A stretch of 64,000 bases of DNA, from positions 1 through 64,000 of the forward strand of contig CAJYXJ010000077.1 in the NCBI GenBank assembly GCA_913778085.1, given 5' to 3'. Shown one piece after another: positions 19,050 to 29,805 of the stretch. Every line of letters starts with the position of its first letter. Within the stretch, counting starts at the first letter, position 1. A model generated the notes under the pieces. The model searched no databases. It worked only from the letters and a program-made list of their open reading frames with translations, and had not been told where the DNA came from. A program made the translations under genes and the position numbers. Source of the DNA: an uncultured Chryseobacterium sp. Lineage in GTDB: Bacteria > Bacteroidota > Bacteroidia > Flavobacteriales > Weeksellaceae.

Positions 19050-20210
19050 TTACGATCCGGAAACCTGATGTTTTTTTCTGAACTTAATTTTCTTCAGATA
19101 GCTGTAACTTATCATGTAGAAAATTATTGTAGTGACCATATTCTGAGGAAGATGAATGGATGACAGCTCCATAAGAACAGTTTTTTTAAGCGCATCGAAT
19201 AGAAACATCGGAAAATCCAGAATTTCTCTCCAGTTAAAAAGAAGCTGAATGGTAATAAAATATCCGAAAACAGCTGTGTTGAAAAGTCCGTAAACCAAAA
19301 TAAAAAGTTTCTTATAGCTGAAGGGTTTAAGACTATCAAGTGGAGTTTTAATAAGCATAAAAACACTTTCAGCAGACTTTTCCTGAAGATTGGGAGTAGA
19401 GGAAAGGTCCGATAACAGCCAATAGCCATCTGACCTGATGAAAGGTATCAGTTGTATAAAGCTGTAAACCGCCATTATGTAAGCCATATAAAAGAAAACA
19501 AACTCCTGCAGAATATAATATAAAAGCAGAAAAATAAGCATGGCGAACATCTGCAGATAAACGCCTCCCAGATTGGCAATTATCCTTTCTTCTTTATCCG
19601 CATGCCATACACTGGAAATATCTGAATAAAAGACAGGAAAAATAAAATAGATGCCGAATCCGATTTCACCGTTTTTTCCGGTATATGTATTACAGGCAGC
19701 AATGTGTCCCAGCTCATGAATAAAAATCGTCGGCAAATACAATATCATAACCCATAGTACCGGAAAATTCTCTGCAGATTCTAACGGTGATGTTCTGAAT
19801 ACCGTATAGGCAGCCAAAATAGACAATATTGAAAAAAAAGTCCAGAATATTTTTTTGTTAAAAAGAAATCTGAAAGGAATAATCAGTTTTCCGGCCGTAG
19901 TTGCCTTAATAAGGGGCATCTGAAATTTAATGAAATTTTTATGTCCCGCAATCTCCTCAGCATTATTTTCAAAAATAGGAATTTTTGAAAAAACATCTCT
20001 CACCAATGAACCAAATGCCTCTTCATCTAAATTATCATTAAAGCAAGCATTGAATTTTGAAACCGCAAAATAATATGTTTCAGATTCGGAAAGTATATCC
20101 ATAAGTGCTTTGCTTTCGTTGCTTATTATGAAATGATGCCCCGATATTTCTATAACCCATCGGTTACCGGGGTAAGCGGATATATGATAATCCTGACGAA
20201 TAAGTGACAT
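19050..20210 (-). CDS. M50-family membrane zinc metalloprotease with possible PqqD/RRE-like N-terminal domain
   Basis: A 386-residue polytopic membrane protein. The zinc motif HELGH is at 165-169 inside a membrane helix (YLPTIFIHELGHIAACN), and the third ligand is in IRSDGYWLLSDL (Asp261). This is the pattern of peptide-processing M50 proteases in bacteriocin and modified-peptide loci. Residues about 20-82 (ISNESKALMDIL...DEEAFGSLVRDVFSKIP) resemble PqqD-like peptide-recognition domains: a strand, then L-x-x-I-L, then a helix ending D-V-F. It starts 6 bases after the isoprenoid-synthase-like gene, and a 54-residue peptide gene lies upstream in the same operon, giving it a plausible substrate. 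Confidence 0.75.
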   Translation of the reverse strand: MSLIRQDYHISAYPGNRWVIEISGHHFIISNESKALMDILSESETYYFAVSKFNACFNDNLDEEAFGSLVRDVFSKIPIFENNAEEIAGHKNFIKFQMPLIKATTAGKLIIPFRFLFNKKIFWTFFSILSILAAYTVFRTSPLESAENFPVLWVMILYLPTIFIHELGHIAACNTYTGKNGEIGFGIYFIFPVFYSDISSVWHADKEERIIANLGGVYLQMFAMLIFLLLYYILQEFVFFYMAYIMAVYSFIQLIPFIRSDGYWLLSDLSSTPNLQEKSAESVFMLIKTPLDSLKPFSYKKLFILVYGLFNTAVFGYFITIQLLFNWREILDFPMFLFDALKKTVLMELSSIHLPQNMVTTIIFYMISYSYLKKIKFRKKHQVSGS

Positions 20211-20216
20211 TACTTC

Positions 20217-21044
20217 TTAATTTAAGGTGAGTTCCTGTATAAGTTTTTCATTTTCGGTAATAACTGATATAACCTGATCCAGATAATGTTCAAGATCCTT
20301 GAGGTTATATTTATTTGACAGCAACTTTGCAGAGATAAATTTTTCTTTTGCATAAGCCGTAAGCTCCTGTCCTATTCCGGAAATATACAATACCCTTTCC
20401 CTGATTTTATCTAATCCTGTGTTTTCATCAATAGCGTTTTCTTTCATAAATTCCTCAACTCTTGAATGAACATACGTCCATTGACCGCTGAAAAGATCCG
20501 CATTAAAATCTTCTATATCATCAACCATCTGGATGCCGCAAAATATTTCGGTAAAGATGCTCTCTATAGCTGCTGGAGAAATTTTATACTCAAATAAGTA
20601 TCCCAATCCTTTAACGGGAATGTACGCCAATGAATGCTTGGAAACAGCATAATCCTCAAAATCAGAGAGAGATAAAACATTCCTGGCTGAATTTTCGTAT
20701 TTTTCCCTGATGAGAATTTTATAATATTTCTCACTGCAGACATTCAGATCATTCCAAAACATATGTTCATCATCAGGAAACAGTTTTCCCAAGGATTTTA
20801 CAGCGTCCTGGTGATTTTTCATCATATCGTAAATTCCGTTTCGTTTTTCTGTGTGCTGCCTTACAAAATCAGAATCGCCGTCAATCAGCTTATCGATTTC
20901 GAAAATAAAGTAACAGAATCTTTCCACCGCAATGCTGAATTGATGTAACAGCTCTTCGTTATCGGTGATATAGTTCTCTTTTAAAAGAGGAATCTGGCTC
21001 TTGAAAAAATTTATGGTAATTTTATTATTCGATTTCATAATCAT
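20217..21044 (-). CDS. class I isoprenoid-synthase-like protein
   Basis: A 275-residue all-helical protein with no signal peptide. IQMVDDIEDFNAD (171-183) has the Asp-rich QxxDDxxD form of trans-isoprenyl synthases, and DKLIDGD (51-57) could be the first Asp-rich site. The start was set at ATG 21044, because the longer reading would run through a hairpin. Known relatives bind polyprenyl diphosphates through Mg at such motifs. Here the neighbours are a peptide gene and a peptidase, so a role in modifying the peptide (for example prenylation) or making a terpenoid partner is possible. Function is inferred, and a non-catalytic helical homologue cannot be excluded. Confidence 0.6.
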   Translation of the reverse strand: MIMKSNNKITINFFKSQIPLLKENYITDNEELLHQFSIAVERFCYFIFEIDKLIDGDSDFVRQHTEKRNGIYDMMKNHQDAVKSLGKLFPDDEHMFWNDLNVCSEKYYKILIREKYENSARNVLSLSDFEDYAVSKHSLAYIPVKGLGYLFEYKISPAAIESIFTEIFCGIQMVDDIEDFNADLFSGQWTYVHSRVEEFMKENAIDENTGLDKIRERVLYISGIGQELTAYAKEKFISAKLLSNKYNLKDLEHYLDQVISVITENEKLIQELTLN

Positions 21045-21070
21045 CTGTTGATAAAAGAAATTTAATAAAA

Positions 21071-21095
21071 TACCTGAGCCTTGACGGCCCAGGTA
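21071..21095 (-). terminator. hairpin between peptide gene and downstream enzymes (leaky terminator or processing site)
   Basis: Arms TACCTGAGCC (21071-21080) and GGCCCAGGTA (21086-21095) pair with one wobble around a 5-base loop. On the minus strand the stem is followed by TTTTATTAAATTT. It sits 28 bases after the peptide stop and 26 bases before the enzyme start, where it would raise the amount of peptide mRNA relative to the enzymes. Confidence 0.65.
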
Positions 21096-21122
21096 CTGCT
21101 TCAATTTTAGCGTACGAAGAAA

Positions 21123-21287
21123 TTATACACCTCCTTGATTTCCCGGATTAGGTGTCGGGGTTGGCACCGGAGTCGGAGCCGGAGTTGGTGGATAATAAGG
21201 CTTCGGGCAGCAGTAAAAAATAAATTCTTTACGCTCTTCTAATTTCTCTACAGAAAACTTTGCTAATTTTTCGTTCATTTTGTTCAT
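21123..21287 (-). CDS. 54-residue precursor-like peptide (leader plus Cys-Cys, Pro-rich core)
   Basis: A short gene (ATG at 21287, or at 21278 three codons later). Residues 1-21 (MNKMNEKLAKFSVEKLEERKE) are charged and helical, like a leader peptide. Residues 22-33 are FIFYCCPKPYYP, followed by a P-T-P-x-P repeat tract and NPGNQGGV. There is no Sec signal. Neighbours are an isoprenoid-synthase-like protein and an M50 protease with a PqqD-like start, both downstream in the same operon. A hairpin follows the gene, as is typical of highly expressed precursor genes. It could instead be an unrelated small protein, but its composition and position favour a ribosomally made, modified peptide. Confidence 0.65.
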   Translation of the reverse strand: MNKMNEKLAKFSVEKLEERKEFIFYCCPKPYYPPTPAPTPVPTPTPNPGNQGGV

Positions 21288-21337
21288 AATTTAAAAAAAT
21301 TTAATTGTTAAAATATATTTAGTTCCGATCGGTCATA

Positions 21338-22117
21338 TTATAAAGGCCTGGCATAGACATTAAGCTTATCCCCTGAATCTCCTCCGAAATACACATAATG
21401 ACCGACATTGTTTGTGGAGCCTATGGTTAATCCATCTAAAACCAAAGTATAGCTTCCCGGCTCAAGTACAATTTCTCCGCCTGGACTTAAGTTAAATGTA
21501 TTGATTGAGCTTGATGTACCGCTGGCATAAGTAACACCATCCGTAAGGTTATAATCGGCAAGGGATGAAGGAGAAGTAATACGAATACGGGCAACAATAC
21601 TTTTGTGATAGGTATCGCTTAAGATGCCACCTGATGTATTGGTAATTCTTGCAGAAATTGAAGACACAATATAGACCATTGACCTTTGCGTCAACGTAAA
21701 ATTTATGGTTCGCAATGCAGGTGATGGCTGATATCCGGCAATCGTAGTCGTGGCTGGAAAATAAGCACTTTGTTCAGTTATTGCATCTCCATCAATTGGT
21801 GTGTTTTCAATTAACTGTATTGCTTTTAAAGTACCGGTAATACCGTTACTGTTAACATACAGCGGATTGGTGGTATCGTCATTGGTGAAGACAGTGGAAT
21901 TATTGGTTTTATTAAGACCGTCTATTCTTACTGTAGGAGTTACAAGCTTTACTCCTGTAGTCCCGATATTGTTATTTACAACGGAGGATGCTCCGCCTAT
22001 ATGCAATCTCTGTTTAGGATCATTGGTACCCATACCGACATTACCGGTTTGAGCAGAGAATGTATTATAAAGGACGATGAATAATAAGGTTGCTAAAAAT
22101 GTACTGGGTTTCATCAT
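21338..22117 (-). CDS. secreted protein of the VGIGTxNP-start type, paralogue 3 of 3
   Basis: A 259-residue protein with a signal peptide (MMKPSTFLATLLFIVLYNTFSAQ). The mature start, NVGMGTNDPKQRLHIGG, is the common Bacteroidota N-terminus of surface or secreted proteins. It shares TPTVRIDGLNKTNNS (about 60-74) with the two genes upstream, and a C-terminal strand pair with EPGSYTLVLDGL that looks like part of a jelly-roll domain. It follows paralogue 2 by 14 bases and precedes the 54-residue peptide gene by 50 bases. Function unknown. Confidence 0.65.
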   Translation of the reverse strand: MMKPSTFLATLLFIVLYNTFSAQTGNVGMGTNDPKQRLHIGGASSVVNNNIGTTGVKLVTPTVRIDGLNKTNNSTVFTNDDTTNPLYVNSNGITGTLKAIQLIENTPIDGDAITEQSAYFPATTTIAGYQPSPALRTINFTLTQRSMVYIVSSISARITNTSGGILSDTYHKSIVARIRITSPSSLADYNLTDGVTYASGTSSSINTFNLSPGGEIVLEPGSYTLVLDGLTIGSTNNVGHYVYFGGDSGDKLNVYARPL

Positions 22118-22131
22118 TTTATAGATTTTAT

Positions 22132-22917
22132 TTATTGCACAGGATAGGCTACCACACTGAAAGTATCATTACCTGCACCGTTTATAATTCTCATAGGAGC
22201 CTGCCCCGAAGCGGTTGCCGCAGCAGCAATAATTTCTATGGTATAGCTGCCGGCAGGTAAATAGAGGACATCCTCCGAATTTGAGTAATAGATTCCCTGA
22301 TCGGTTGTATTCGGCGTTTTACTGTAATATCCCTTTAAGGACTTTCCAAAATAAGACGTGGCGGATGTCGGAATGCCTGCCGGTGCGGCGGAAAATCTGA
22401 ATTTTGTCCCCCACTGCCGGTTTGAGTCATCTGCAATACGGCTTGTGCTGTTGGCTTGGTAAAACTGGAAGCTGGTAACCGCTCCTAATCTAACCAGTGA
22501 CGGTGAGGAGAGCGTAAAATTAAAGCTGCGCAATACCGTGTTGGTTGTAAGATTGGTACTTGTCTGATCAGTAGTTACAACCGCTGTCAGGTAATCCTTT
22601 TCAGTATTTGATATATTGAAATCGTCAATCATGATCAGTGGCACAACCAAAGCCGGAGCCAGAACCACATCACCCTTGTCGGTTACTGAAACAGGTCTTA
22701 TCTTATCTGTAACAGACTGATTTGCATTATTAAGTCCTTCGATTCTCACAGTTGGCGTAATAATCTGTATTGTAGATGTACCAGGAACAGATGTAGCAGT
22801 TGTAGCACCGGAAATATCTGAAATCTGCAAAGCTTTATTCGGATTTTTTGTTCCTATCCCTACTTGTGCGAATGCATACTGTATGGAAAAGAAGCTGATA
22901 AAAAATATTTTTTTCAT
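22132..22917 (-). CDS. secreted protein of the VGIGTxNP-start type, paralogue 2 of 3
   Basis: A 261-residue protein with a signal peptide (MKKIFFISFFSIQYAFAQ), then VGIGTKNPNKALQISD and the shared segment TPTVRIEGLNNANQS. The C-terminal half is beta-rich, ending with LYLPAGSYTIEIIAA, which matches GTYTV and GSYTL in the paralogues. No enzymatic motif is visible. It sits 15 bases after paralogue 1 and 14 bases before paralogue 3, so the three genes are one transcription unit. Predicted extracellular or outer-surface location; role unknown. Confidence 0.65.
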   Translation of the reverse strand: MKKIFFISFFSIQYAFAQVGIGTKNPNKALQISDISGATTATSVPGTSTIQIITPTVRIEGLNNANQSVTDKIRPVSVTDKGDVVLAPALVVPLIMIDDFNISNTEKDYLTAVVTTDQTSTNLTTNTVLRSFNFTLSSPSLVRLGAVTSFQFYQANSTSRIADDSNRQWGTKFRFSAAPAGIPTSATSYFGKSLKGYYSKTPNTTDQGIYYSNSEDVLYLPAGSYTIEIIAAAATASGQAPMRIINGAGNDTFSVVAYPVQ

Positions 22918-22932
22918 AAAATAAAAACTGGT

Positions 22933-23676
22933 TTAGTAGGAAACTGGAGTTATACTGACTCTCATAACCTGGCTGGTTTGGGATTGTGTATTAACCGTGT
23001 AATCTATATCAGGATTTTCTAAAAAAGCATATAAATTTACGGTATAGGTTCCTTTAGGTAAGTAAAGGTCTTTGCTTGGATTAAAGTAATACTGGCCCTT
23101 AAGCTGCTCTGCGTTGGTTGTGTTCGAAGAGGAATATGATCCTAATGCATTTACTGAATTTCCAAAGCCTTTCGTGGTCGAAACTCCGCTTCCCGAAGGA
23201 ACACTCGTAAACTTAAAATAAAATCCCATCTGTCTTGGCTTGCCATCACTGAAATTACCGCTGTTCGTAGGAGAACCTGAATCATTCCATACCAATGAAG
23301 CTCTTGCCTGAAAATGGACTAAAGAAGGATAATCTAAAACAAAAGTCTGTGTACCTACTGCTGTTTCACCTGAAAAAACCTTTGTTCGTGTGATTGGAGA
23401 CGTTGTGCTAAATTTATTGATTTCTTTATTTCCCAAAATCACCAAATCACCATCAGAAGTAGCATACACTCTTTTTTGCGAGCCAATATTTTCATTAGCC
23501 GTATTATTGATACTGTTTAAACCGTCGATTTGTATTACTGGCTGCAATGTTCCTGAACCAGAGCCTGAAATATGTAATGCCTGCTGTGGATTAGAATTAT
23601 TAATACCGACCTGAGCGAAAGTAGCATTGCTCAAAGTGCCAAGTAGTAACAATACAAATAATTTGTCTTGTTTCAT
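22933..23676 (-). CDS. secreted protein of the VGIGTxNP-start type, paralogue 1 of 3
   Basis: A 247-residue protein. The start was set at 23676 (MKQDKLFVLLLLGTLSNATFAQ), which gives a proper signal peptide; the longer reading adds nine basic residues. It has VGINNSNPQQALHISG and QPVIQIDGLNSINNT as in the paralogues, then a beta-rich C-terminus with LYLPKGTYTVNLYA. It is the first gene after a good promoter (23701-23732), and five more genes follow on the same strand with small gaps. Confidence 0.65.
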   Translation of the reverse strand: MKQDKLFVLLLLGTLSNATFAQVGINNSNPQQALHISGSGSGTLQPVIQIDGLNSINNTANENIGSQKRVYATSDGDLVILGNKEINKFSTTSPITRTKVFSGETAVGTQTFVLDYPSLVHFQARASLVWNDSGSPTNSGNFSDGKPRQMGFYFKFTSVPSGSGVSTTKGFGNSVNALGSYSSSNTTNAEQLKGQYYFNPSKDLYLPKGTYTVNLYAFLENPDIDYTVNTQSQTSQVMRVSITPVSY

Positions 23677-23700
23677 CCGTTCATGTTTTTTTATTGGCGG

Positions 23701-23732
23701 CAAAGATAAATTAAAAAAACAATTCCCTCCAA
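23701..23732 (-). promoter_or_regulatory. promoter of the six-gene peptide/M50 operon
   Basis: Minus strand: TTG (23730-23732), 21 bases, then TATCTTTG (23701-23708). This is a full match to TTG/TAnnTTTG, 25 bases upstream of the first start codon. Confidence 0.65.
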
Positions 23733-24014
23733 AAAAAAACTATTTTTTTTCTAAAAAAAATGAAAAAGAGAAAATTTGTCATTAAAAACTACTATAAAAT
23801 CTACAAATTAGGAAATTTTGACACCTTTTTTTTCATATTTAACAATTGAATACTTTTTGCGATACACTTCCCGAATTAAATGATTGAATAGATGGAGGGC
23901 ATCAGAAATTAGAAAATCGGATTTGCAAAATTAACATTTTTAAGACTCTTATGGTCTGAAATCTGATGTCTGAAATCAATAGTCAAACTGAATTAAAATC
24001 AAAAATATAGAGAT
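23733..24014. other. spacer between the divergent peptide operon and clpB
   Basis: A 282-base AT-rich spacer with long A- and T-runs (23731-23760 and 23826-23833). The clpB promoter should lie here, but no complete TTG/TAnnTTTG pair or heat-shock site could be picked with confidence. TACTTTTTG near 23851 is one base too long for a -7 box. Confidence 0.4.
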
Positions 24015-27755: not shown

Positions 27756-28403
27756 ATGAGTGAATTTCAGAAGGTTTTACAAGAATCCATGATATGGATC
27801 GAAGGATTTACGGCCATCGTTTCAATCATTTATTTTTACCGGGTAAAAGATCAGTACTGGAAATATTTTTCATATTACCTGATTATTATTTTTCTTTCTG
27901 AAGTTTTTGGGAAGTGGGGACATTATTTAATCGATTATGACAAACCTGCTTTTTTCAATTATTTTGTTATTCCTTTAGAATTTATATTCCTATACTGGCT
28001 CTATGCGGCAAAATCATTTGGGAAAAAGAATCTATTTTATATTATAAGTGCATTATATCTAATTTCGTTTATTCCAAATGAGTATTTTTTTAAAATGAAA
28101 AAGATAATTTTCTCATTCAACTATACATTCGGATGTTTAATTCTGATGATTTTAGTTGTCATGGAATATTATAAACAGATCAATTCATCTGAAATCCTGA
28201 ATTTCAGTAAAAACAGAATGTTTTATATTAATCTGGGAGTAACGTTATTTTATATCGGAACATTACCGTTCTGGACGTTTTTCAGTATTCTGAATGAATA
28301 CAAAGATCTCTGGAACATCTATTTTAATTACTTCCTTATTTCCGGAATAATTATGTATCTGCTATTTTCAACTTCAATCATATGGGGAAAACAGAATTAT
28401 TAA
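27756..28403 (+). CDS. polytopic membrane protein linked to a two-component system
   Basis: A 215-residue protein with about six or seven membrane helices from residue 12 to 212 and aromatic-rich helices (IVSIIYFYRVKDQYWKYF; FNYFVIPLEFIFLYWLYA). It overlaps the sensor kinase gene by 22 bases, so the two are translated together. The kinase has only one membrane helix and no sensor domain, so this protein may be its sensing partner (inference). The family has no known function. Confidence 0.65.
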   Translation: MSEFQKVLQESMIWIEGFTAIVSIIYFYRVKDQYWKYFSYYLIIIFLSEVFGKWGHYLIDYDKPAFFNYFVIPLEFIFLYWLYAAKSFGKKNLFYIISALYLISFIPNEYFFKMKKIIFSFNYTFGCLILMILVVMEYYKQINSSEILNFSKNRMFYINLGVTLFYIGTLPFWTFFSILNEYKDLWNIYFNYFLISGIIMYLLFSTSIIWGKQNY

Positions 28404-29167
28404 TAACCATCATTCTTTTCAATATATTCTTCCTGTTCTTTATTGTTGCCGTGATGATCTATATCCGGAAATACAAACAGCGAAAGAAAGAATATCTGAA
28501 TGAAATTGAAGTAAAAAATGAGATCCACAAACGGGAGCTTCTTGCCACACAATTGGAAATCCAGCAGGCCACCATGCAGCAGATCGGCCGCGAGCTTCAT
28601 GACAATATCGGTCAGAAACTTACCCTGGTGAGTCTTTATACCCAGCAGCTTTTGTACGAAAACAAAGTTCCGGAAGTCAGCGAGAGAATCGATCAGGTTT
28701 CACAGATCATCAACCAGTCATTGCAGGATTTAAGAAGTTTATCCAAAACACTGACAGATGATAATATCAACCAGAAAGAAATCGTAACTTTAATCCAGGA
28801 AGAAGCAGACAATACCAATGTCTTCAAAAGATGCCATGTGGATTTTAAGCACAACTTTCAGCACCTTGATCTGGGATTTGTCCACAAGAATGTATTGCTG
28901 AGGATTACCCAGGAATTTATCCAGAACAGCATTAAGCATTCCCGGTGCAGCAATATTTTCATCAGTCTGAACACGTCGAAAGAATCGCTCTGGGAACTTA
29001 ACATTAAAGATGACGGAATTGGATTTGACCAGTCGAACATTGCCTCGACCGGGATTGGGCTTACGAATATGAAAAACAGGGCCGAAATTATCGGGGCAGA
29101 ATTCAGCCTTGAAAGCCAGAAAGACAAAGGAACCACGCTCAACATTATTTTAAAAAGACAGCCATGA
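28382..29167 (+). CDS. sensor histidine kinase, NarL/LuxR-partner type (HisKA_3)
   Basis: A 261-residue kinase. One membrane helix (about 6-28), then a coiled linker, the dimerisation domain with phospho-acceptor His73 in GRELHDNIGQKLTLVSLYTQQL, and a GHKL ATPase domain (TQEFIQNSIKHSRC; DDGIGFD; STGIGLTNMKNRAEIIGA). There is no extracellular domain. It passes phosphate to the response regulator downstream, whose start overlaps by 4 bases. Confidence 0.9.
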   Translation: MGKTELLITIILFNIFFLFFIVAVMIYIRKYKQRKKEYLNEIEVKNEIHKRELLATQLEIQQATMQQIGRELHDNIGQKLTLVSLYTQQLLYENKVPEVSERIDQVSQIINQSLQDLRSLSKTLTDDNINQKEIVTLIQEEADNTNVFKRCHVDFKHNFQHLDLGFVHKNVLLRITQEFIQNSIKHSRCSNIFISLNTSKESLWELNIKDDGIGFDQSNIASTGIGLTNMKNRAEIIGAEFSLESQKDKGTTLNIILKRQP

Positions 29168-29805
29168 AAAAAACCATAGTGATTGTTGATGATCACGTAC
29201 TCATCGCCAAAGCACTGGAAGGAATTATCGACAACTTTAAAGAGTTTGAGGTGATCTATGTTGCAGAAAACGGCAAAGACCTCATCCGGAAATTTGAAAA
29301 TAACAGTAAGATCCCGGATATTATCCTTCTGGACATCAGCATGCCCATCATGGATGGTTTTGAAACCGTACTCTGGCTGAAGGAAAACCATCCCGCAATT
29401 AAGGTGATGGCCTTGAGTATGCAGGGTGACGATAAGAGTGTGATTAAAATGATTAAGAACGGCGCAAAGGGGTATCTGCTGAAAAATACGCATCCTAAAG
29501 AACTTGAAAATGCACTAACAAAATTAGATGCAGACGGTTTCTTCTATCCTGAATGGGCTTCCAAAATCATCTTTTCAAATATGAGCAATGAAGATCCGGC
29601 AGGCAGCATCCGGATTTCTGAACGCGAAAAGGAATTCCTCAAATATACCGTCACCGAGCTCAGCTACAAAGAAATTGCCGATAAAATGTGCTGCAGTCCA
29701 CGAACGGTGGAAAGCTACCGGGATCAGCTTTGTGACAAGCTCGATTTAAAAACCAGGGTCGGCTTAGCGGTTTTTGCGATAAAAAATGGCTTCGCAGAAT
29801 CCTAA
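29164..29805 (+). CDS. response regulator, NarL/LuxR family
   Basis: A 213-residue regulator: receiver domain with acidic pair D9/D10, phospho-acceptor Asp57 in IILLDISMPIMDG and Lys near 105 (AKGYLLK), then a LuxR-type HTH (SEREKEFLKYTVTELSYKEIADKMCCSPRTVESYRDQL). The cognate kinase is immediately upstream. Targets are unknown. Confidence 0.92.
   Translation: MKKTIVIVDDHVLIAKALEGIIDNFKEFEVIYVAENGKDLIRKFENNSKIPDIILLDISMPIMDGFETVLWLKENHPAIKVMALSMQGDDKSVIKMIKNGAKGYLLKNTHPKELENALTKLDADGFFYPEWASKIIFSNMSNEDPAGSIRISEREKEFLKYTVTELSYKEIADKMCCSPRTVESYRDQLCDKLDLKTRVGLAVFAIKNGFAES

Follow-up and report, generated by a model that had tools for sequence, protein, structure and literature searches.

ChrPC, a peptide prenyltransferase-cyclase, was reportedly described by Hubrich et al. 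in 2024. Passages of a 2026 review group its P domain with ComQ and PalQ as peptide prenyltransferases resembling trans-isoprenyl diphosphate synthases (trans-IDS-like enzymes); there, the P domain is described as prenylating an internal Trp with C10–C20 donors and the C domain as cyclising the chain, and PalQ as acting on a terminal Trp (PMC13290415). Here, we analysed an operon of an uncultured Chryseobacterium sp. (Bacteroidota; Weeksellaceae) located in the first 64,000 nucleotides of contig CAJYXJ010000077.1 of assembly GCA_913778085.1, and this whole stretch is referred to as the window. The last three genes of the operon code for a 54-residue peptide (P0003), a class I isoprenoid-synthase-type protein (P0002) and an M50 metalloprotease (P0001). 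From comparisons with related loci, we consider it rather probable that they form a cluster for a ribosomally synthesized and post-translationally modified peptide (RiPP), in which the stand-alone trans-IDS-like enzyme would prenylate the aromatic residue adjacent to the leader, Tyr25, with subsequent processing by the M50 protease.

Two-domain relatives of P0002 fit the published description of ChrPC, as far as the wording of the review allows the comparison, in joining a class I domain to a squalene-hopene-cyclase-like domain and in being accompanied by precursors with Trp. P0002 differs from ChrPC in standing alone, its five operon partners giving no cyclase match in Pfam or NCBIfam, and the precursors of its family carry Tyr rather than Trp at the leader end. 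The ComQ/ComX system of Bacillus likewise combines a small precursor with an enzyme of the isoprenoid-synthase superfamily that prenylates an aromatic peptide residue, but ComX is modified on Trp. Moreover, the second Asp-rich motif, intact in P0002, is missing from ComQ, and the proteases cutting the prenylated precursor are given as unknown in the part of the source drawn on (PMC10853753), whereas an M50 protease is encoded alongside here. PalQ/PalX of Paenibacillus alvei resembles our case in that a trans-IDS-like peptide prenyltransferase stands alone in a RiPP cluster, and four precursors of minimal type in Chryseobacterium have a C-terminus of glycines and Trp as preferred by PalQ; however, PalQ uses a terminal Trp (PMC13290415, in the passages named above), whereas the window peptide contains no Trp at all. 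The first-pass annotation of this DNA knew of no described family combining these parts, a view that gives way to the superfamily shared with ComQ, PalQ and the ChrPC P domain. Because the two-domain relatives fit the published description of ChrPC, we regard the system as a variant of known peptide-prenyltransferase systems and not as wholly new.

Core genes of the cluster

The operon consists of six open reading frames (ORFs) on the minus strand, separated by gaps of 15, 14, 50, 78 and 6 bases, all as initially annotated. The precursor gene (21123..21287, minus strand) codes for the 54 residues of P0003, with a LEERKE leader, the invariant Tyr25 and a Pro-rich tail, and the peptide reads as first described. 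Over 23 leader codons compared among nine Chryseobacterium genomes, pS was 0.74 and pN 0.065 (pN/pS 0.09), so that synonymous change is saturated while the protein sequence is conserved. The leader is therefore under strong purifying selection, and the ORF is a genuine gene rather than a product of chance. In an alignment of 17 precursors, M1, L8, E14, L16, E17, R19, K20, E21, F22 and Y25 are invariant, and the tail differs in both length and sequence between precursors, being mostly rich in Pro and Gly. This combination of conserved leader and variable tail is the usual leader/core picture of RiPP precursors, and genes for modifying enzymes lie next to it.

A P0002-type protein was found in 14 of 174 genomes of the genus, and a fifteenth match, in genome G077, is one of the two-domain relatives. 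The M50 gene adjoins the P0002-type gene in all 14 genomes (the copy in G119 is broken by stops), and all 14 have one or more precursors upstream of it; there are six in tandem in G035, three in G145, and a pair in both G138 and G085, one member of the G085 pair being divergent. At the level of the order (395 genomes), five genomes were matched by the peptide profile, and the class I profile matched the same five with E < 1e-70 together with three more distant relatives. Algibacter pacificus (L049) and the flavobacterial genome G834 (L089) contain the genes for peptide, class I protein and M50 protease but lack the secreted paralogues that precede them in the window. Over these flavobacterial clusters, precursor, class I and M50 genes occur together in 16 of 16, which bears out the co-conservation of peptide and neighbours looked for after the first-pass annotation and, together with the profile comparisons and NCBIfam matches below, its proposal of a ribosomal peptide system of these three parts. 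The secreted paralogues are complete, with all three, in 9 of the 16 (those of G018 judged by ORF lengths within 4.2 kb upstream); they are thus accessory, and the idea that they belong to the core was rejected.

P0002 (20217..21044, minus strand; 275 aa) is a stand-alone trans-IDS-like class I isoprenoid-synthase-type protein and the proposed peptide prenyltransferase. It contains the motifs D51xxxD55, K136 and Q172xxDDxxDxxxD183, of which D51, D55, K136, Q172, D175, D176, D179 and D183 are invariant in its 14-member family, and D51, D55, D175, D176, D179 and D183 are also kept in 11 rows of two-domain proteins. These relatives are 572–741 residues long (11 proteins) and consist of a class I N-domain and a squalene-hopene-cyclase-like domain; of 12 two-domain proteins scanned with PF13243, 8 scored above the cut-off and three below it (E 1.6e-5 to 8.3e-5), and one (L077) gave no match. 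The fused cyclase domain of the ChrPC type is missing from the 275 residues of P0002, which match the N-domain of the larger proteins. One two-domain cluster, that of G077 (L070, 11953–14553), additionally contains a P450 (PF00067) and a radical S-adenosylmethionine (SAM)/SPASM protein, the latter with PF04055 over the cut-off and TIGR04463 as best NCBIfam match (168.5 bits, cut-off 525). In two others, L151 (4614–7543, G068) and L170 (7634–9555, G655), the gene of the two-domain enzyme is in two pieces, and the Trp-type precursor and the M50 gene are kept.

Profile comparisons by hhalign connected the P0002 family (15 rows) to the N-domains of the 11 two-domain proteins with a probability of 99.7 (E 1.4e-26), and these N-domains to 12 Bacteroidota polyprenyl synthases of PF00348 with a probability of 95.2 (E 2.8e-8). 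The pooled 27 rows matched the 12 synthases with a probability of 90.4, with both Asp-rich motifs and the lysine of the KT motif in register, compared to at most 1.7 for reversed and 60 column-shuffled synthase profiles. In addition, PF00348 itself gave weak matches under the cut-off in 5 of the 12 two-domain proteins (E 0.0015–0.057), covering the stretch from KT to the second motif. By these profiles, P0002 appears to belong to the isoprenoid-synthase superfamily through its two-domain relatives. It does not look like a canonical polyprenyl synthase, having no Pfam match, a DxxxD first motif and no RRG arginines, which are absent from all 27 rows compared (P0002 family and two-domain relatives). 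Since the RRG arginines bind isopentenyl diphosphate in polyprenyl synthases, chain elongation by P0002 is unlikely. With the trans-IDS-like peptide prenyltransferases it shares two Asp-rich motifs, the first as a variant of DDxxD, a Gln just upstream of the second and, via the profiles of the two-domain relatives, the superfamily; the Trp acceptor of the known enzymes is not found in P0003. A search of the P0002 profile against solved structures returned a single weak and unrelated match (E 0.022). The host also encodes two ordinary polyprenyl synthases, so prenyl donors should be available.

P0001 (19050..20210, minus strand; 386 aa) is an M50 intramembrane-type metalloprotease with HELGH and DGYW motifs. 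In NCBIfam, residues 15–332 matched NF041824, a family of daptide proteases, with 97.5 bits (cut-off 300), and the protein matched NF058609 (YydH/LiaK), of epipeptide proteases, with 65.6 bits (cut-off 225); both scores lie under the curated cut-offs, and P0001 is not a member of the daptide family by this measure. The N-terminus of the wider M50 family (19 rows) matched PqqD with a probability of 82 and a score of 34, compared to at most 0.4 and 12.3 for shuffled profiles, and no match was obtained between the M50 N-terminus and the N-termini of radical SAM proteins. The PqqD-like start proposed in the first-pass annotation is therefore supported for the wider family and hinted at for the close relatives of P0001 alone, which barely match (values given below).

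Aromatic residue behind the leader motif

Small ORFs with a LEER-x-E-like motif were present near the class I and/or M50 gene in most clusters fetched, the five M50 loci without a LEER-type ORF being L097, L144, L147, L148 and L149. The 17 clusters with a stand-alone enzyme in this comparison and all 26 precursors counted in them have a Tyr at most five residues behind the motif; this set consists of the P0002 family and one unrelated lineage, G398, with SSYC and SCYC. In twelve of the 17, the precursors counted are all free of Trp, and in none of the 17 does a Trp lie within eight residues of the motif. All 16 two-domain clusters (27 of 27 precursors) contain a Trp, which lies near the motif in 13 clusters and, as ICW or VCW, near the C-terminus in three. 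In the M50 clusters that have LEER-type ORFs and no class I domain, neither Tyr nor Trp occurs near the motif (10 of 10; 33 precursors). An aromatic residue follows the leader motif closely in 32 of all 35 clusters with a class I domain, and the other three have the near-C-terminal Trp.

These counts include near-copies (L094/L096/L153/L154, L095/L099 and L070/L075/L098, as well as L091/L151/L152/L170 with the same core). L073 and L150 are one locus and entered the counts once, and the split loci L151 and L170 were counted as two-domain clusters; without both, the Trp count is 14 of 14. The motif search missed the second precursor of G085 (FEERKE, followed by the same FTFYY). The degraded second cluster of G134 (L100, 4070–9601) was left out; its M50 gene is split by an ORF on the opposite strand, no class I gene was found in it, and the LEERLELGSW precursors are kept. 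Among the M50 clusters without a class I gene, L094, L096, L153 and L154 have four tandem LEER-type precursors (SVVSLDxxRC...), which in L094 and L096 adjoin genes resembling those for fatty acid or polyketide synthesis, as judged by eye. L095 and L099 contain six and three tandem LEER-type precursors (GDNYCCTGSD), respectively, and a 462-aa protein whose start looks like that of radical SAM enzymes by eye.

In the tree, the Tyr family forms one clade (100/100), with two Hymenobacter proteins as its nearest rows (86/79). G398, which is also stand-alone with Tyr, groups with the two-domain proteins (99/94) on a long branch that makes its place less sure. Given these separate places, Tyr and Trp would have changed at least twice on the tree. 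The two Hymenobacter loci (L171, 5803–8130; L172, 5719–8315) lie on plasmids, so the module is also plasmid-borne, and each contains a stand-alone class I gene and an M50 gene, the latter followed by precursors of Trp type. A rule that a stand-alone enzyme means Tyr had held for 17 of 17 clusters at first and was dropped after these two had been found.

Proposed reaction and competing explanations

In the reaction that we favour, the precursor would be bound through the LEER-x-E motif of its leader, and P0002 would bind an allylic diphosphate (C10–C20) and Mg at D51xxxD55 and D175DxxD179 and transfer the prenyl chain to the aromatic residue right behind the leader motif, here Tyr25. Presumably after this step, the M50 protease with its PqqD-like N-terminal domain would cut off the leader and help to release the lipidated Pro-rich product. 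It may also export the product, by analogy with EpeP, for which both cleavage and export of the product are proposed in the part of the source drawn on (PMC10885120). Of this scheme, the genes and their co-conservation, the leader and motifs, the placement in the superfamily by profile and the association of the aromatic residue with the class I domain are observed, and catalysis, donor, Tyr as acceptor, sequence of events and export are inferred.

Several observations weigh against this assignment. According to the 2026 review, as far as its passages were used here, Trp is the target of all characterised trans-IDS-like peptide prenyltransferases, and a Gln upstream of the second Asp-rich motif is linked to Trp recognition (PMC13290415). 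The corresponding Q172 is invariant in the P0002 family although the window peptide has no Trp; it may be ancestral rather than Trp-recognising, because the ordinary synthase L101 has a Gln at this place as well (FQIMDD). Compared to the polyprenyl synthases on its own, the P0002 family reached a probability of 2.7 in hhalign, which is not significant, and P0002 alone has no Pfam match, so the link to the superfamily runs via the two-domain relatives. The PqqD match of the six close P0001 relatives alone is also faint (probability 3.1, score 18.9, shuffled maximum 15.1). As to the acceptor, the two Hymenobacter plasmid clusters combine a stand-alone enzyme with a retained Trp (QRLETAWSM, PRTEIWSKD), and 5 of the 17 Tyr-type clusters have a Trp elsewhere, in four of them C-terminally behind glycines as in PalQ substrates. 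In two M50 clusters without a class I gene, all precursors have a Tyr at a more distant position, and a Trp occurs in one of the L146 precursors. Fisher's test for Tyr in stand-alone versus two-domain clusters, computed without the two Hymenobacter clusters, gave P 8.6e-10, a value overstated by clusters of near relatives and by the two of the 16 two-domain clusters with a split enzyme gene. Finally, Tyr25 could be conserved for recognition only.

This last point leads to an explanation that we regard as unlikely, namely S-prenylation by P0002 of a Cys near the junction of leader and core, with Tyr25 as a recognition residue. Thiols are the classic prenyl acceptors in eukaryotes, a Cys directly follows Tyr25 (FYC) in most precursors, and the peptides of the unrelated G398 read SSYC and SCYC. 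Nevertheless, the four minimal-type Chryseobacterium precursors (FYTIKNC or FYTVKNC) lack the Cys at this position, as do those of Algibacter (FYFNYAQC) and G834 (FYYSSHDSGC), one precursor copy of G035 contains no Cys at all, and the Trp at the corresponding place of the two-domain precursors mostly has no adjacent Cys. Modification of the Cys pair of P0003, which the first-pass annotation had offered as a hypothesis, is not supported: the pair is not conserved, the preceding Tyr is invariant, and the pair was rejected as the main acceptor.

Two further explanations take the chemistry of P0002 away from the peptide. We give a little less credence still to P0002 making or modifying a small isoprenoid or prenylating free Trp, with the peptide modified otherwise or not at all. 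The fold family includes terpene synthases, Ord1 farnesylates free Trp in the passages of the review (PMC13290415), and the acceptor characterised so far, Trp, is absent from the window peptide; yet P0002 and the precursor co-occur tightly, the neighbourhood of precursor and M50 gene is found in all 16 flavobacterial clusters, and the class I domain and the aromatic residue at the end of the leader go together. A catalytically dead class I fold, serving to bind the leader or as a chaperone while the M50 protease performs the only chemistry, appears improbable. The first Asp-rich motif, DxxxD instead of DDxxD, and the failure of Pfam to recognise P0002 would agree with it, but D51, D55, K136, Q172, D175, D176, D179 and D183 are kept without exception in its 14-member family, and the aspartates among them also in the 11 two-domain rows. 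Prenylation of Tyr25 by P0002 is accordingly the reading with which we continue, and the interpretation given in the first-pass annotation is, as a whole, partly supported.

Operon context and implications

Upstream of the precursor gene, the secreted paralogues P0006 (22933..23676; 247 aa), P0005 (22132..22917; 261 aa) and P0004 (21338..22117; 259 aa) are encoded on the minus strand as accessory genes. All three (21338–23676) contain a VGIxTxxPQxALHISG stretch near the N-terminus and an LPAGxYT stretch near the C-terminus, given here as consensus. No Pfam family scored over the cut-off for P0005 and P0004, nor for any other of the six operon proteins, and searches of the paralogues against PDB gave weak matches only (best E 0.0036). 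Pfam and NCBIfam scans of the six proteins, which did not include a search aimed at transporters, showed no match to a dedicated transporter. By eye, an ABC-F-like ORF of 634 aa lies directly upstream of the Algibacter cluster L049, and another ABC-type ORF is more distant in L078.

A terminator-like hairpin (21069..21097, minus strand, identified by folding) with a T-rich stretch behind it is located in the 78-base gap between the precursor and enzyme genes, and the whole gap folds at −22.0 kcal/mol. Such a hairpin was present in all 14 gaps folded from the 17 Tyr-type clusters, the sequences differing and the feature being kept; this count was made without a shuffle control. As to the good promoter that all six genes were initially said to share, reading the sequence ahead of the first gene revealed a promoter-like pair of TTTG (23733–23730) and TATCTTTG (23708–23701) with 21-nt spacing (23701..23733, minus strand), assigned by the Bacteroidota promoter consensus. 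The surroundings are T-rich and the pair was read without a chance control, making it weak evidence for a promoter.

Judging the neighbours by eye, the operon occupies two chromosomal sites in the genus, one beside clpB-like and TetR/phenylacetate-like genes (window, G134, G119, G108) and one beside a 361-aa protein starting like release factor 1 (G097, G099, G145, G085). Genes resembling a histidine kinase and a response regulator (by eye) are found on the opposite strand of the window at 28382–29805, about 5 kb from the operon, and the G134 copy has different neighbours on this side.

Searches of open-licence papers showed none whose title or abstract describes the P0002 family, and the main text of a survey of Bacteroidales RiPPs (PMC10352776) does not contain the terms M50, terpene, prenyl, isopren, squalene or daptide. 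What appears to be new, from the comparison of clusters, is the LEER-x-E leader motif shared by most of them, with Tyr behind the motif in the P0002 family and G398 and Trp in the two-domain clusters. A broader proposal, which we put forward tentatively and with less assurance than Tyr25 prenylation itself, is that P0002 represents the first Tyr-accepting family of trans-IDS-type peptide prenyltransferases. It would be part of a wide Bacteroidota system in which one LEER-x-E leader and one M50 family go with exchangeable modules (a prenyltransferase that may or may not have a cyclase, a radical SAM protein or a P450), and in which the acceptor at one and the same site has changed, from Trp to Tyr or the reverse, on at least two occasions.

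There is demand for peptide lipidation in drug design. If the proposal is true, the available chemistry would be extended by a compact enzyme of a single domain that works with a short, highly conserved leader and is predicted to use Tyr as acceptor, and homologues acting at the same position would allow a direct comparison of Trp and Tyr as acceptors. The LEER leader is, moreover, a simple handle for finding further clusters of this kind, in which many precursors are so short that gene callers can miss them.

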